Source of the DNA: Levilactobacillus brevis
GTDB taxonomy: Bacteria; Bacillota; Bacilli; Lactobacillales; Lactobacillaceae
Direction: 5' to 3'
Assembly: GCA_003666485.1 (NCBI GenBank)
Contig: CP032931.1
Coordinates: 1,116,001-1,180,000, forward strand
Length of the DNA: 64,000 bases
Shown here: one piece after another, positions 36,646 through 41,596 of the stretch
Numbering within the stretch: the first letter of the stretch is position 1
How the letters are laid out: each line of letters begins with the position of its first letter
Made by a program: the position numbers and the translations under genes
The notes under the pieces: generated by a model
Told to the model about the DNA's origin: nothing
Database searches by the model: none
What the model saw: only the letters and a program-made list of their open reading frames with translations

Positions 36646-36681
36646 ACGTTCAAATCCTTTCTACTAGTTAAACTTATTTCC

Positions 36682-36697
36682 AGTATACCGTTTTCAA
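36682..36697 (-). promoter_or_regulatory. Possible CcpA (cre) site before the GH3 gene
   Basis: AGTATACCGTTTTCAA matches 14 of 16 positions of the cre consensus read as WTGWWWNCGYTNNCAW. It lies about 37 bases before the GH3 start, where carbon catabolite repression of a glucosidase would be expected. Two mismatches keep this tentative. Confidence 0.4.
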
Positions 36698-36748
36698 TCC
36701 CGTTATGTTACCCTCTGTCGATAATTTTACGCGACCTGAACTTATTCT

Positions 36749-36777
36749 TTGACAAACGGCGAAGAATGGGTTAACTT
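36749..36777 (+). promoter_or_regulatory. Promoter of the leader peptide-oppA transcript
   Basis: TTGACA (36749-36754), 17-base spacer, TAACTT (36772-36777). The transcript would start near 36784 and run through the leader peptide and terminator hairpin before oppA. Confidence 0.7.
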
Positions 36778-36831
36778 TAATCTTGTGCAATTCACTTAAT
36801 CACAAAAAATAAGTAAAGGAGGAAGATCACA

Positions 36832-36936
36832 ATGTTGAACAGCGCTTACCAAACTCAAGGACAACTGGCCGCATGTTGCGAATGTAACGTGTCTTTTTGC
36901 GTTACCACAATTCGTGATCTTCCGGCTAAACCGTAG
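36832..36936 (+). CDS. Cys-rich leader peptide (34 codons) before oppA
   Basis: A short frame too small for routine gene finding: AGGAGG at 36818-36823 is 8 bases before ATG 36832, and the product has 34 residues with the cluster CCECNVSFC at residues 15-23, i.e. four Cys codons among nine. It has no signal peptide or membrane helix. Downstream come a 16-base perfect palindrome (GCCAATCTAGATTGGC, 36948-36963), a strong terminator and then oppA. The layout is that of a transcription-attenuation leader sensing Cys-tRNA supply, which is inference; the sequence itself shows only frame, ribosome site and hairpins. Confidence 0.75.
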   Translation: MLNSAYQTQGQLAACCECNVSFCVTTIRDLPAKP

Positions 36937-36970
36937 CAGTACATAGCGCCAATCTAGATTGGCAGTGTCC

Positions 36971-37020
36971 AACGGGTTACCGCTTTCACGAATGTCGTGA
37001 GGGAGGTAGCCCGTTTTTTC
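36971..37020 (+). terminator. Attenuator-like terminator before oppA
   Basis: AACGGGTTACC (36971-36981) pairs with GGTAGCCCGTT (37006-37016, one wobble), extended inside by TCACGA/TCGTGA, and is followed by TTTTTT. It lies after the leader peptide and 68 bases before the oppA start, so it would reduce oppA expression unless disrupted. Confidence 0.85.
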
Positions 37021-37087
37021 GGCTTTAAAATAAAATTTTTGTGGATTGCACGCCAAAAAAATTGAGGAAAAAAGGAGCAGTTATCTG

Positions 37088-38728
37088 ATGAGAAAATGGA
37101 CTGGAATTGGGTTAGTCGCCGCAGTTGTCGCACTAGGCATGGGGTTAGCTGCTTGTGGGCAAACATCATCAACGGCCAAGCCGCAGCAGGAGTTGCGGTT
37201 GCCAGCGACCGCGGCACTCGATACGATCGACCTCGCCAAGGCGACGGGGTATGGCCAGACGGGGAACGTCTTTGAAGGCTTTTATCGCCTGGGTAAGAAC
37301 GGGAAAGTTGCGCCAGGTTTGGCGGATAAGGTCAGCGTCTCCAAGGACAAGAAGACCTGGACTTTCCACGTTCGCGACAATGCCAAGTGGAGCAACGGCG
37401 ATAAGATCACCGCACAAGACTTCGTTTATTCCTGGCGGCGGACGTTGACACCATCGACGAAATCGTCTTACATGACCATGTTTTCTGGCATCAAAAACGG
37501 CGATCAAATTATTGCGGGTAAGAAAGATCCTAGCAGCATTGGAATTCACGCCAAGAACCAGCAGACGGTCGTCGTTCAACTGGACAAGCCCATCGCTTAC
37601 TTTAAAATTTTAATGGCTTATCCACTGTTTGCCCCCCAAAATAAAAAGGTGGTCGACAAGTACGGCAAGAAGTACGCGACTAAGTCTGAATACATGGTCT
37701 ACAGCGGTCCCTTTAAGATTCAAGGCTGGAATGGGACGGGCAACACCTGGTCCTTCGTCAAGAACAATCAGTACTGGGATCACAAAGTCGTGAAGCTACA
37801 CAAGATCAATTACCAAGTGGTCACCAATCCACAGACCGGGTTGAGCCTGTACCAAAACAAGAAGCTAGACTTTGCGCAGCTGTCCAACGAGCAGGTGAAG
37901 AACTACAAGAATAATAAAGAGTTCCAGCAATATCCGTACTCCATTGTGATTCATTTGAAATACAACTTCCAAGACGCCGACAAGGCCAAGCGGCGGATCA
38001 TGAGTAACCAAAATATTCGCCAGGCCATTGCGTTGTCCATCAACCGTGGCCAATTGACCAAGAAAGTCTTGGGTGATGGTTCCGTGACCCCAACTGGATT
38101 TGTGGCCAGTGGTTTAGCTAACGACCCCAAGACGGGCGAGGACTTCGCCAAGCAACAGGCCGTGAAGAACACGACCACGTACAACCCAACCTTGGCTAAG
38201 AAAAAGTGGGCAGCCGGGTTGAAGCAATTGGGCATTCAAAAGGTTAATTTGAACATCATGGCCGGAAACGATGACGTGGCCGCCAGCACCGTGACCCAAT
38301 ACCTGAAGGGCGCGCTGGAAAAAAATCTGAAGGGCTTTAGTCTTAAGATTCAAAACGTTCCTGCTTCCGTGGCACAATCACGTTCGACCAGCGGTGACTT
38401 TGATTTGTACCTGTCTCACTGGGGAGCCGACTTCAACGATCCGATTTCTTTCTTACAGATTCCGGTCAGCTCTAACTCATTGAACTACGGGAAATGGTCG
38501 AATAAGCGTTATGATGCGCTGATCGACAAGGCACAAGGCCAAGATGCCGGCAACGATGAAGCGCGTTGGCAAGACATGGTTCAAGCAGCTAAATTGTTGA
38601 ACAAGACGCAGAGCTTCACGCCACTGTACCAGGCCAACTACGCCTACCTGACGCGTTCCGATGTCCATGGGATCATCCACAACACGGCGGGAACGCAGTG
38701 GAGTTACAAATACGCTTATATCAAGTAG
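37088..38728 (+). CDS. Oligopeptide-binding lipoprotein (OppA family)
   Basis: 546-residue substrate-binding protein of the SBP_bac_5 family. Lipoprotein signal with lipobox GLAACGQ (Cys ~22), then TGQTGNVFEGFYRL-type and TWTFHVRDNAKWSNGDKI peptide-binding motifs typical of OppA. ATG 37088 follows AAAGGAG; the longer frame from 37046 overlaps the leader. No permease genes are adjacent, so it must work with a distant Opp system. The Cys-rich leader hints at uptake of sulfur-containing peptides or cystine (speculative). Confidence 0.9.
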   Translation: MRKWTGIGLVAAVVALGMGLAACGQTSSTAKPQQELRLPATAALDTIDLAKATGYGQTGNVFEGFYRLGKNGKVAPGLADKVSVSKDKKTWTFHVRDNAKWSNGDKITAQDFVYSWRRTLTPSTKSSYMTMFSGIKNGDQIIAGKKDPSSIGIHAKNQQTVVVQLDKPIAYFKILMAYPLFAPQNKKVVDKYGKKYATKSEYMVYSGPFKIQGWNGTGNTWSFVKNNQYWDHKVVKLHKINYQVVTNPQTGLSLYQNKKLDFAQLSNEQVKNYKNNKEFQQYPYSIVIHLKYNFQDADKAKRRIMSNQNIRQAIALSINRGQLTKKVLGDGSVTPTGFVASGLANDPKTGEDFAKQQAVKNTTTYNPTLAKKKWAAGLKQLGIQKVNLNIMAGNDDVAASTVTQYLKGALEKNLKGFSLKIQNVPASVAQSRSTSGDFDLYLSHWGADFNDPISFLQIPVSSNSLNYGKWSNKRYDALIDKAQGQDAGNDEARWQDMVQAAKLLNKTQSFTPLYQANYAYLTRSDVHGIIHNTAGTQWSYKYAYIK

Positions 38729-39537: not shown

Positions 39538-41186
39538 CCTGAATTATTCATACCTTTCAAAAAAGTCGTCAGTTTTCATGTTTTTCAAAAACTGACGGCT
39601 TTTGATCTTGCTTACTATGTATTGAGACTCTAAATTTTGATGGTATCACCTAACGGTGAGTCATTTTTGAATTTTTGGGTGCACTTATCCCTTGATCGTA
39701 CAGAATTTTTTTTAATTGGGGCTATTTAATAGCCTGAATACGCTGTAATACCTGATAAAAGAGTCGATGATAAACGTGATGAGAACTCAGTCGTAACTGG
39801 ATTCGTCGACCGGTAAACACAACGCGGGCAGCGACTTTGAATAAACGGATTCGTAATGTACTAACACGCAATCCGGTCTCTGTTTTAGGTAGGGCTATTT
39901 GCTTCATAAAATTGATAATATTGTACGCTAATACACTAACCATCATACGGGCAGCGTTGGCGGTAAACGTTGAACTATCAGTCTTATCAAAGAAGAAGCC
40001 CTCTTTGGCTTCCTTGATATAATTCTCCATCTGACCACGCTTATGATACAGTTCAAATGCTGCTTCTACGGTTAAATTTGTCAGATTAGTCACAATAAAT
40101 TCATGTGAAAAGATCAATTCGCCAGCTACACGAGTTGACTTAACGTATACTTGACGCGGTTTAGGCCACGAAGTGGCCTGATAAGTTGCTGAGTAATAGT
40201 GAGTTTCGGTTTCATGCCACTCAGTTGTGTCGCTTATCTGTACAAACTCTTCTGCCAAGTTGTGTAGTCGCTTATTACGTTTGAGGCGAATAATGTAAAA
40301 GACATCATCGGCCTCGCAGGTATCATAAACAGCTGGTGTGGCGAACCCGCTATCACCGCGAACCAGAATATCAGTTTCTGGCAATTGGTCTTGATAATGT
40401 TTTAATAACGGTTCTAAAAAGGCTTTTATATCTGTGCTGGTATAGGCATTACCAGGCCGTAGGATGGCTTTCATGAGATTACCATCATTATCGATAGCTA
40501 GTAATGGATGATACCCCTCCGAGCCATAATGGGCGTTATAGTCAGTAGCTTCTTGATTGCCATAAGTGTCAGAATGGGTTGAATCAATATCAATAATGGT
40601 GGTCGTCTGATTAGTTAGCAGTCGAGCTTGATCAATAAGAGCTTGATTTAAAGTCTGGAAGGCGTCCACACCTGCGGAATCGATACGTTGCCAGAAACGG
40701 GATATCGTCGCTTGTGAAGCTAAGGCTGGTTTGTCCAATAAAAGTTTAAACAATGGTTCTGCAACCAATGAGGTTGCAGCAGAATCTGTATTATAACCGG
40801 CAATGATCTGCAGAACCAACTGCATTAAGATACTTGAATTACTATGTCGGCAGTATTGTCGATGGTCGTTGAACTTCAATAGATTGTCAGCTAAGTTCGT
40901 GAACTGAAACTTTGCCATCAGTTCAACACACAAGGTTAGGCCACCATCAGAAGATAATTGACCGCCGGTATGCGATGCTAGAATGTTTTTATTGAAACTA
41001 AATGCCATTTCCTGTACAGTTTTCATTATAGAGTCCTCTTCTCTTTATAGTGTCTTTTGGTCGAGTTAACTATACCAGAGCTGAGGCTCTTTTTCTGCAC
41101 TTAAAAGGTGAAAACGTAAAATTCCCATCAAGCACTTGAATCATGTGTTTGATGGGGATTTTGGAGTTTCTGGTGAATAATTCAGG
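39538..41186 (-). mobile_element. IS1380-family insertion sequence
   Basis: 1649-base element bounded by inverted repeats CCTGAATTATTCA (39538-39550) and TGAATAATTCAGG (41174-41186) and flanked by the direct repeat GTCTT (39533-39537 and 41187-41191), a 5-base target duplication. It holds one minus-strand transposase. A hairpin (39566-39607, AGTCGTCAGTTTT with its complement) near the left end would terminate the transposase mRNA. Intact ends and duplication indicate a recent insertion. Confidence 0.92.
39722..41026 (-). CDS. IS1380-family transposase
   Basis: 434-residue DDE transposase. The start has the family motif SHTGGQLSSDGGLTLC; acidic catalytic residues are recognisable in TTIIDIDSTHSD near residue 147, LVRGDSGFATP near 222 and HKRGQMENYIKEAKEG near 330. 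AGAGGACTC lies 7-9 bases upstream of the ATG. The frame is complete and uninterrupted, so the element may be active. Confidence 0.93.
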   Translation of the reverse strand: MKTVQEMAFSFNKNILASHTGGQLSSDGGLTLCVELMAKFQFTNLADNLLKFNDHRQYCRHSNSSILMQLVLQIIAGYNTDSAATSLVAEPLFKLLLDKPALASQATISRFWQRIDSAGVDAFQTLNQALIDQARLLTNQTTTIIDIDSTHSDTYGNQEATDYNAHYGSEGYHPLLAIDNDGNLMKAILRPGNAYTSTDIKAFLEPLLKHYQDQLPETDILVRGDSGFATPAVYDTCEADDVFYIIRLKRNKRLHNLAEEFVQISDTTEWHETETHYYSATYQATSWPKPRQVYVKSTRVAGELIFSHEFIVTNLTNLTVEAAFELYHKRGQMENYIKEAKEGFFFDKTDSSTFTANAARMMVSVLAYNIINFMKQIALPKTETGLRVSTLRIRLFKVAARVVFTGRRIQLRLSSHHVYHRLFYQVLQRIQAIK

Positions 41187-41225: not shown

Positions 41226-41522
41226 AAATTAAACGATTGAAAAAACAATGTGATCAGGAGAGTAACCACCGTCAATGGTTTGAAGAGAGCCCGTGATTTG
41301 CTGCAAGCGGGTAACCCACGGCGGGGTGAAGATGGCCTGAAATGAATTGGTATCGCTGAGTCCTTGGGATGAGGCGGTAATGTCCGGCACTCATTATCGT
41401 GCACGCACTTCAAGGCGCAAGCTGGCGAGTGTTAATGAGGAGCTGGGTATTCGTACCTGACTTGAATTTAGAATGGTACCACGACGAAGTTCGTTTCTAT
41501 TAATTTAGGAGCGGACTTTTTC
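41226..41522 (+). ncRNA. T-box riboswitch, probably methionine-specific
   Basis: A ~300-base leader ending in the T-box sequence AGAATGGTACCACG (41470-41483; consensus AGGGTGGNACCGCG), followed by a terminator (AAGTTCGTTTC 41487-41497 with GGAGCGGACTT 41508-41518, then T-run). An AGAGAGC stretch at 41284-41290 and an ATG at 41342-41344 are compatible with Stem I and a Met specifier, fitting the metQNI genes downstream. Uncharged tRNA-Met would favour readthrough. The exact Stem I fold was not computed. Confidence 0.85.
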
Positions 41523-41596
41523 TTTTGGTCACAAAGTCAATCGCGGCGTTTCAATTTTTACAAATAGAATTTAGTAGATAAAGGGGATTATTGGGT

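Follow-up and report, generated by a model that had tools for sequence, protein, structure and literature searches.

A cysteine-rich leader frame and a terminator precede oppA

The window, by which we mean the whole 64-kb stretch of Levilactobacillus brevis DNA analyzed here, carries on its plus strand oppA, an SBP_bac_5 lipoprotein gene of 546 codons (37088-38728) with the Shine-Dalgarno (SD) sequence GGAG at 37074-37077. By sequence, the nearest solved relative of the protein is 5kzt_A (376 bits); a literature search found no mention of 5kzt. The neighbors of oppA in the window are a family-3-type glycosidase gene and tag, with no permease gene. On the same strand, the region from 36749 to 37087 holds a promoter (36749-36777) composed of TTGACA at 36749-36754, a 17-nt spacer, and TAACTT at 36772-36777, which would place the transcript start near 36784-36786. 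The SD sequence AAAGGAGG (36815-36822) leads a 34-codon frame, MLNSAYQTQGQLAACCECNVSFCVTTIRDLPAKP (36832-36936, including the stop codon TAG at 36934-36936), whose product contains CCECNVSFC, with four cysteine codons (36874-36876, 36877-36879, 36883-36885, and 36898-36900) within nine. Behind the leader stop stand a hairpin (36941-36968), topped by the 16-nt palindrome GCCAATCTAGATTGGC (36948-36963), and an intrinsic terminator (36971-37019) with arms at 36971-36991 and 36995-37015, a run of six T at 37014-37019, and a stability of about -31 kcal/mol.

An earlier note on this DNA had described the frame with its strong ribosome site, the four cysteine codons, and a strong terminator followed by the oppA start, all of which we find in place. 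Its "good promoter" is half right: the -35 TTGACA is perfect and retained in 32/32 Levilactobacillus rows, but the -10 TAACTT matches the consensus at just 3/6. A scan for promoters and terminators missed both this promoter, whose -10 is too weak, and the true terminator, listing in its stead a hairpin within the leader. The perfect palindrome is present in the window but is no key part in itself; its counterpart in sister species is mostly not palindromic and forms a hairpin top with a varying loop (by eye). Within the 64-kb window, 738 SD-led starts open frames of 8-60 codons; 16 distinct frames have at least three cysteines in ten codons, and the leader frame alone among these has the full 8-nt SD sequence.

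Cysteine codons and competing RNA arms in Levilactobacillus

Leader DNA was matched in 34/34 other Levilactobacillus genomes searched, in some of them in part only; L. brevis ATCC 14869 (L053) is among the strains with the leader. Three core cysteine codons are retained in 32/32 leaders of the genus, and the codon between them encodes glutamate, glutamine, valine, or lysine (22, 6, 3, and 1 of the 32). Counted from the core onward, 23 leaders have four cysteines and nine have five, and four or five are also found in the 12/32 leaders in which an insertion shifts the frame behind the core. The earlier note's expectation of conserved cysteine codons amid neutral neighbors is borne out for the cysteines and for the codon between them, but the flanking codons (GCA before the core, AAC after it) are invariant, so some core neighbors are not free.

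The leader RNA contains two complementarities that share one segment. Arm 1 (36821-36830), which overlaps the leader SD sequence, is fully complementary to 36914-36923 (helix H1), part of an arm 2 formed by late leader codons (36910-36923), while 36910-36917, also in arm 2, is fully complementary to 36986-36993, a segment inside the 5' arm of the terminator; this second pairing would be an antiterminator. H1 comprises 7-10 pairs in each of 32 Levilactobacillus species (at least nine in 26). In a set of 16 distinct arm pairs, pairing holds in 89% of cells and five pairs are changed on both sides, a number reached by 5/500 shuffles; no shuffle (0/500) and no slid version of the helix attains its covariation score. 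Arm 2 keeps at least six of eight pairs with the terminator arm in 28/31 rows, the remaining Levilactobacillus row (L035) having no terminator; variants of the two segments include ATTCGTGA/TCACGAAT, AATCGTGA/TCACGATT, and TATCGTGG/TCACGATA. For this antiterminator, 84% of cells are paired versus 20-43% when the arms are slid; 8/500 shuffles attain its covariation score, and 217/500 match its count of three double-change pairs. From these figures the pairing is well supported and its covariation modest, so the covarying antiterminator stem that had been anticipated is there as a pairing, with covariation the weaker half of that claim. Species of the zymae/namurensis/spicheri group have available a neighboring pairing to the terminator loop, CGTTCA:TGARCG (by eye). 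Alignment A1 holds 28/32 Levilactobacillus rows (L035, L054, L055, and L087 excluded), and alignments A2 (17 rows, of which 16 are distinct) and A3 (12 rows) are made of distinct arm pairs.

Cysteine leaders across Lactobacillaceae

We called a Cys leader any SD-led frame no longer than 60 codons in which a stretch of ten codons includes at least three cysteines. Among 118 distinct regions lying upstream of oppA orthologues, 99 have such a frame, as against 0/40 paralogue regions and 6.1% of dinucleotide shuffles. With a chance rate of about 6%, some of the 99 may be chance frames (L078, L084, and L171 are doubtful). The boundary between orthologues and paralogues is a gap in score (600 versus 517 bits). 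Removal of duplicates took the upstream regions from 133 to 130 and then to 118; L088, L090, L091, L092, and L094 were dropped from 62 loci as too distant, and L001-L032 and L095-L106 were dropped before counting, being of the same genus as named loci. The 40 paralogues comprise 39 matches taken in score order below the gap, where one at a contig end was passed over, and one more from lower in the list.

Cys leaders occur in 13 genus-level groups and are otherwise unlike one another. Coverage is full in Levilactobacillus (32/32), Pediococcus (10/10), g38 (10/10), Lapidilactobacillus (8/8), and g23 (7/7), and in the small groups g24 (5/5), Lactobacillus (2/2), g12 (2/2), g13 (1/1), and g32 (1/1); it is partial in Lentilactobacillus (13/14), Ligilactobacillus (5/6), and Secundilactobacillus (3/4), and Cys leaders are absent from Liquorilactobacillus (0/10), g25 (0/4), g33 (0/1), and g9 (0/1). 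Peptides such as AACCECN..C, MCCSMC, MMMCCPCC, MCCCCT, and VCCCC illustrate the range: outside Levilactobacillus, the cysteine cluster is the sole feature common to the leader peptides of different genera (by eye), and even its spacing varies by genus (CC.C, C.CC, CCCC, CC..CC). A terminator follows the frame in 96/99 Cys leaders, none being found in L035, L084, and L171.

Support for the competing arms is uneven beyond Levilactobacillus. The antiterminator helix of Lentilactobacillus has 90% of cells paired versus at most 44% when slid, with one double-change cell. In a test of the wider region, the duplex between the leader end and the terminator arm has a median z of -3.5 in Lentilactobacillus, -3.0 in g23, -2.6 in Ligilactobacillus, -1.9 in Levilactobacillus, and -5.0 in g13 (one row), and it is weak in g24 (+0.6), Lactobacillus (-0.7), g38 (-0.75), Secundilactobacillus (-1.0), Pediococcus (-1.2), and Lapidilactobacillus (-1.3). 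The narrow definition of the antiterminator failed in Pediococcus, where the best pairing of the wider region sits around the stop codon. Over all 96 leaders in the narrow region test, p is at most 5 of 100 for the antiterminator in 49 and for H1 in 59.

A candidate ribosome-mediated attenuator

These observations argue that the leader is very probably a ribosome-mediated transcription attenuator of the trp/his type, with charged tRNA-Cys as the signal read and a peptide-binding lipoprotein as the target. It has the SD-led frame, the conserved run of cysteine codons, and the intrinsic terminator of such devices, together with an antiterminator in Levilactobacillus and Lentilactobacillus and, judged by duplex z, in g23 and Ligilactobacillus. 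The comparison of sequences establishes these parts, the conservation of the cysteine codons, the competing arms, and the linkage to oppA. Conserved codons, competing arms, and terminators in 96/99 leaders support the translation-dependent attenuator that the earlier note had proposed; the response to cysteine, its timing, and the substrate of OppA are inferred.

In the proposed mechanism, when cysteine is plentiful the ribosome would pass the cysteine codons and reach the stop at 36934, masking arm 2 (36910-36923), whereupon the terminator (36971-37019) would fold and oppA would be off. When charged tRNA-Cys is scarce, the ribosome would stall on the cysteine codons (36874-36900) and leave arm 2 free, which, if arm 1 and the SD sequence are occupied, would pair with 36986-36993 and let polymerase continue into oppA, and expression of oppA would permit uptake of cysteine-bearing peptides. 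In an untranslated leader, arm 2 would pair with the leader SD region (H1) and the terminator would form, so that oppA would be off by default.

Folding predictions with ribosome footprints blocked bear on the order of these events. At equilibrium the terminator is favored in every state (0.93). H1 reaches 0.99 in free RNA and is also preferred over the antiterminator when a single ribosome is stalled and the SD sequence is free; neither H1 nor the antiterminator can form when a ribosome sits at the stop codon. The antiterminator reaches 0.94 only in nascent RNA extending to 36998, with the SD sequence occupied and a ribosome at the cysteine codons. The modeled states match trp-type logic (off when fully translated, off when untranslated, on when stalled), and the mechanism would need both co-transcriptional timing and an occupied SD sequence.

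Methionine T-boxes and the breadth of the signal

A T-box senses tRNA directly and with no leader peptide, an uncharged tRNA allowing transcription to continue beyond a terminator. The T-boxes of lactobacilli (RF00230) therefore resemble the Cys leader in their job, but differ from the oppA leader in that the latter would be read by a ribosome. A search of 36650-37150 found no T-box at the window leader. At the place of the leader and on the gene strand, a T-box was found in 10/19 leaderless orthologues (L070, L074, L120, L125, L126, L128, L129, L132, and L134 in Liquorilactobacillus and L138 in g33). L138 and L070 pass the Rfam cut-off of 93 bits, and the other eight score 66-85 bits with E values of at most 1e-12. 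The specifier is AUG (methionine) after GAAG or GAAA, read in L138 and L070 from alignments, the pattern search having matched an earlier site there; the bulge is UGGU, which is unsuited to the U73 of tRNA-Cys. Neither a Cys leader nor a T-box was found in 9/118 orthologues (L071, L093, L121, L148, L170, and L177-L180), of which L093 lies on a short contig end. In a tree of OppA with 71 rows, including 3/10 T-box orthologues, the three Liquorilactobacillus T-box rows fall into starred clades together with L075 of Ligilactobacillus, which has a Cys leader, and L071, in which neither sensor was found, and at the next level with Lentilactobacillus L064 and L068 (Cys leaders). This nesting of T-box rows among Cys-leader genes suggests that the Cys leader was replaced by a methionine T-box on the oppA orthologue.

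The same T-boxes raise the question of whether the leader reads the status of sulfur amino acids broadly, through methionine and cysteine codons, and not cysteine alone, a reading that we regard as possible but rather doubtful. Methionine clusters (start codon excluded) occur in 20/118 upstream regions versus 1.2% of shuffles and in 0/40 paralogue regions, as in MMMCCPCC of g38 and MCMCMM of Lapidilactobacillus, and by this enrichment the sensor may read both sulfur amino acids in some genera; methionine is the most prominent residue other than cysteine, followed by alanine (36 regions versus 9.2% of shuffles) and glutamine (13 versus 3.9%). Against a broad reading, the window leader has no methionine codon after its start, and cysteine is the sole residue common to all 13 groups (by eye).

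Cysteine synthase genes were also compared. The window genome gave no cysKM match, where control genomes were positive in 14/14 cases, and 11/12 sampled Levilactobacillus genomes were without any match, the remaining one having a match at E 1.8e-4. A cysKM-like gene (E < 1e-60) is present in the g33 genome and in all nine sampled Liquorilactobacillus genomes with an orthologue, eight of them with and one without a T-box. We considered whether the leader marks cysteine auxotrophs only and rejected the idea: in g24, 5/5 genomes have both a Cys leader and a cysKM-like gene (E < 1e-60).

Alternative explanations

Apart from a broader sulfur signal, three readings compete with cysteine-reading attenuation. 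Control might act mainly through the translation or RNA stability of oppA, with the terminator secondary, which we consider improbable. It would give a role to a long-range pairing, P0, between 36785-36793 at the expected RNA 5' end and 37043-37051 between the terminator and the oppA SD sequence; P0 has 9/9 pairs (G-U allowed) in 29/32 Levilactobacillus, and three sister species show one compensated pair in it, but it does not overlap the oppA SD sequence, and no support for it was found in other genera. Translational control would also suit the second short frame with at least two cysteines (MESECSDC.., MSPGCPC..) that 9/10 Pediococcus loci have between terminator and oppA (L076, L077, L079, L080, L150, L152, L154, L155, and L166), a count that stands without a chance control. 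Terminators in 96/99 leaders weigh against it, although in Levilactobacillus cerevisiae (L035) the leader and its cysteine codons are kept and no terminator was found between leader stop and oppA; L035 might be a natural variant that expresses oppA regardless of cysteine.

Cysteines spaced as in CCxC could bind metal. The peptide itself might therefore act, as a metal- or redox-binding small protein or as a redox-stalled nascent chain, the terminator being a by-product, and mycobacterial cysteine-rich uORFs have been discussed as possibly redox-sensitive (accessible part of PMC4633059). This is very unlikely given that the peptide outside the cysteine cluster is not common to genera, that cysteine spacing differs among them, and that oppA elsewhere carries a methionine T-box; moreover, the frame changes in 12/32 Levilactobacillus alter the end of the peptide and leave the RNA arms largely kept. 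A riboswitch, a ligand-binding RNA in which the frame would be incidental, is the least probable of all: despite a strong leader fold (z = -3.7, 100 shuffles) and the recurrence across Levilactobacillus (by eye) of a hairpin after the stop, Rfam at gathering and permissive thresholds gave no family in 36650-37150 save one hit at E 2.6, and what the genera have in common is a frame, an SD sequence, and cysteine codons, not a fold.

Relation to known systems

To our knowledge, leader-peptide attenuation is rarely reported in Firmicutes. Polycysteine uORF attenuators of mycobacteria were reportedly described by Canestrari in 2020. In the accessible part of a paper that cites them, these attenuators are leaderless and translational (as cited in PMC13236596), and short frames with clustered cysteine codons also lie upstream of sulfur genes as the cys/cbs leaders of Actinobacteria (available text of PMC1262725 and PMC4633059). 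The oppA leader resembles both in its short frame with clustered cysteine codons. It differs from the mycobacterial uORFs in being SD-led (36815-36822), in having a terminator (36971-37019), and in standing before an oligopeptide-binding protein gene in Firmicutes, and from the actinobacterial leaders, which as described in the available text have no conserved terminator (PMC1262725), in having both a terminator and an antiterminator arm. Another relative in design is uORFC-8-2, a predicted attenuator before cysS in Rhodobacterales, whose uORF has tandem cysteine codons and is followed by an intrinsic terminator (PMC8632094, in the part accessible). It is, however, an alpha-proteobacterial element with two cysteine codons that serves a cysteinyl-tRNA synthetase, whereas the oppA leader belongs to Lactobacillaceae, has mostly 3-5 cysteines, and in the window precedes an SBP_bac_5 gene; in the window genome, no Cys leader was seen by eye in the 400 nt before cysS. 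Within the bacilli, a histidine leader peptide before hisS*/hisZ (PMC2965389, from its available text) is likewise leader-peptide attenuation in Firmicutes, but it concerns histidine and aminoacyl-tRNA synthetase paralogues where the oppA leader concerns cysteine.

For the inferred role of OppA, CtaP of Listeria monocytogenes may offer a precedent by analogy: first annotated as oligopeptide-binding, it has been associated with high-affinity cysteine uptake (PMC10269559, in the part available), although CtaP is linked to two permease genes and oppA in the window has no neighboring permease. The earlier note had called such control uncommon for Opp-type binding proteins; no report of a Cys leader before oligopeptide-binding genes is among the literature matches listed, from a search outside which most subscription papers lie. 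Of four studies on Firmicutes or lactic acid bacteria, the accessible portions of PMC2494555 and PMC3766115 mention neither "opp" nor "leader peptide", those of PMC3616900 none of "oppA", "oligopeptide", and "leader", and those of PMC6004538, with RNA-seq of L. paracasei in medium deficient in cysteine and methionine, neither "opp" nor "peptide". If the device is borne out, Firmicutes would have a cysteine attenuator that spans a whole family and acts on genes for oligopeptide-binding proteins. It would connect one OppA protein among many look-alikes with a physiological signal, cysteine, give a sequence handle on the sulfur nutrition of food and gut lactobacilli without cysteine synthase, and provide a case of ribosome-read and tRNA-read sensors replacing each other on one gene.

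Sensors on other OppA-like genes and the neighborhood of oppA

T-box matches in the window genome number 25, five of them above the cut-off. Six T-boxes precede SBP_bac_5 lipoproteins (L225, L226, L229, L233, L234, and L235), and their specifiers read as isoleucine, isoleucine, tryptophan, leucine, methionine, and arginine, tryptophan being the least sure. Applied to 12 synthetase T-boxes, our specifier rule gave a clear reading in tyrS, valS, and trpS (3/12) and no usable match in the other nine. The genes behind the T-boxes gave no Pfam hit with the 60-residue N-terminus and did so with longer frames, which are cut by locus ends. The cysteine leader fits a pattern in which each OppA-like protein would stand under its own amino acid sensor. 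It is a tentative generalization, one we would put at somewhat less than even, that in Lactobacillaceae single OppA-type proteins are wired to single amino acids through separate, interchangeable RNA sensors; if so, each OppA-like protein would either handle peptides in which "its" amino acid abounds or answer one particular shortage.

The ten neighbors of orthologues that were scanned, from seven other loci, form a mixed set, including a glycosylase, lactate/malate dehydrogenase, isochorismatase, HlyIII, HAD, and DNA alkylation repair proteins and, at L081, one ABC ATPase. The leader is therefore tied to oppA and not to a gene neighborhood.

About 2.5 kb downstream of oppA in the window, past a DDE transposase gene on the minus strand (39722-41026), lies a plus-strand T-box (41241-41501) that scores 72 bits, below the Rfam cut-off, has the specifier AUG (methionine), and stands before a metQ/NlpA gene at 41591.
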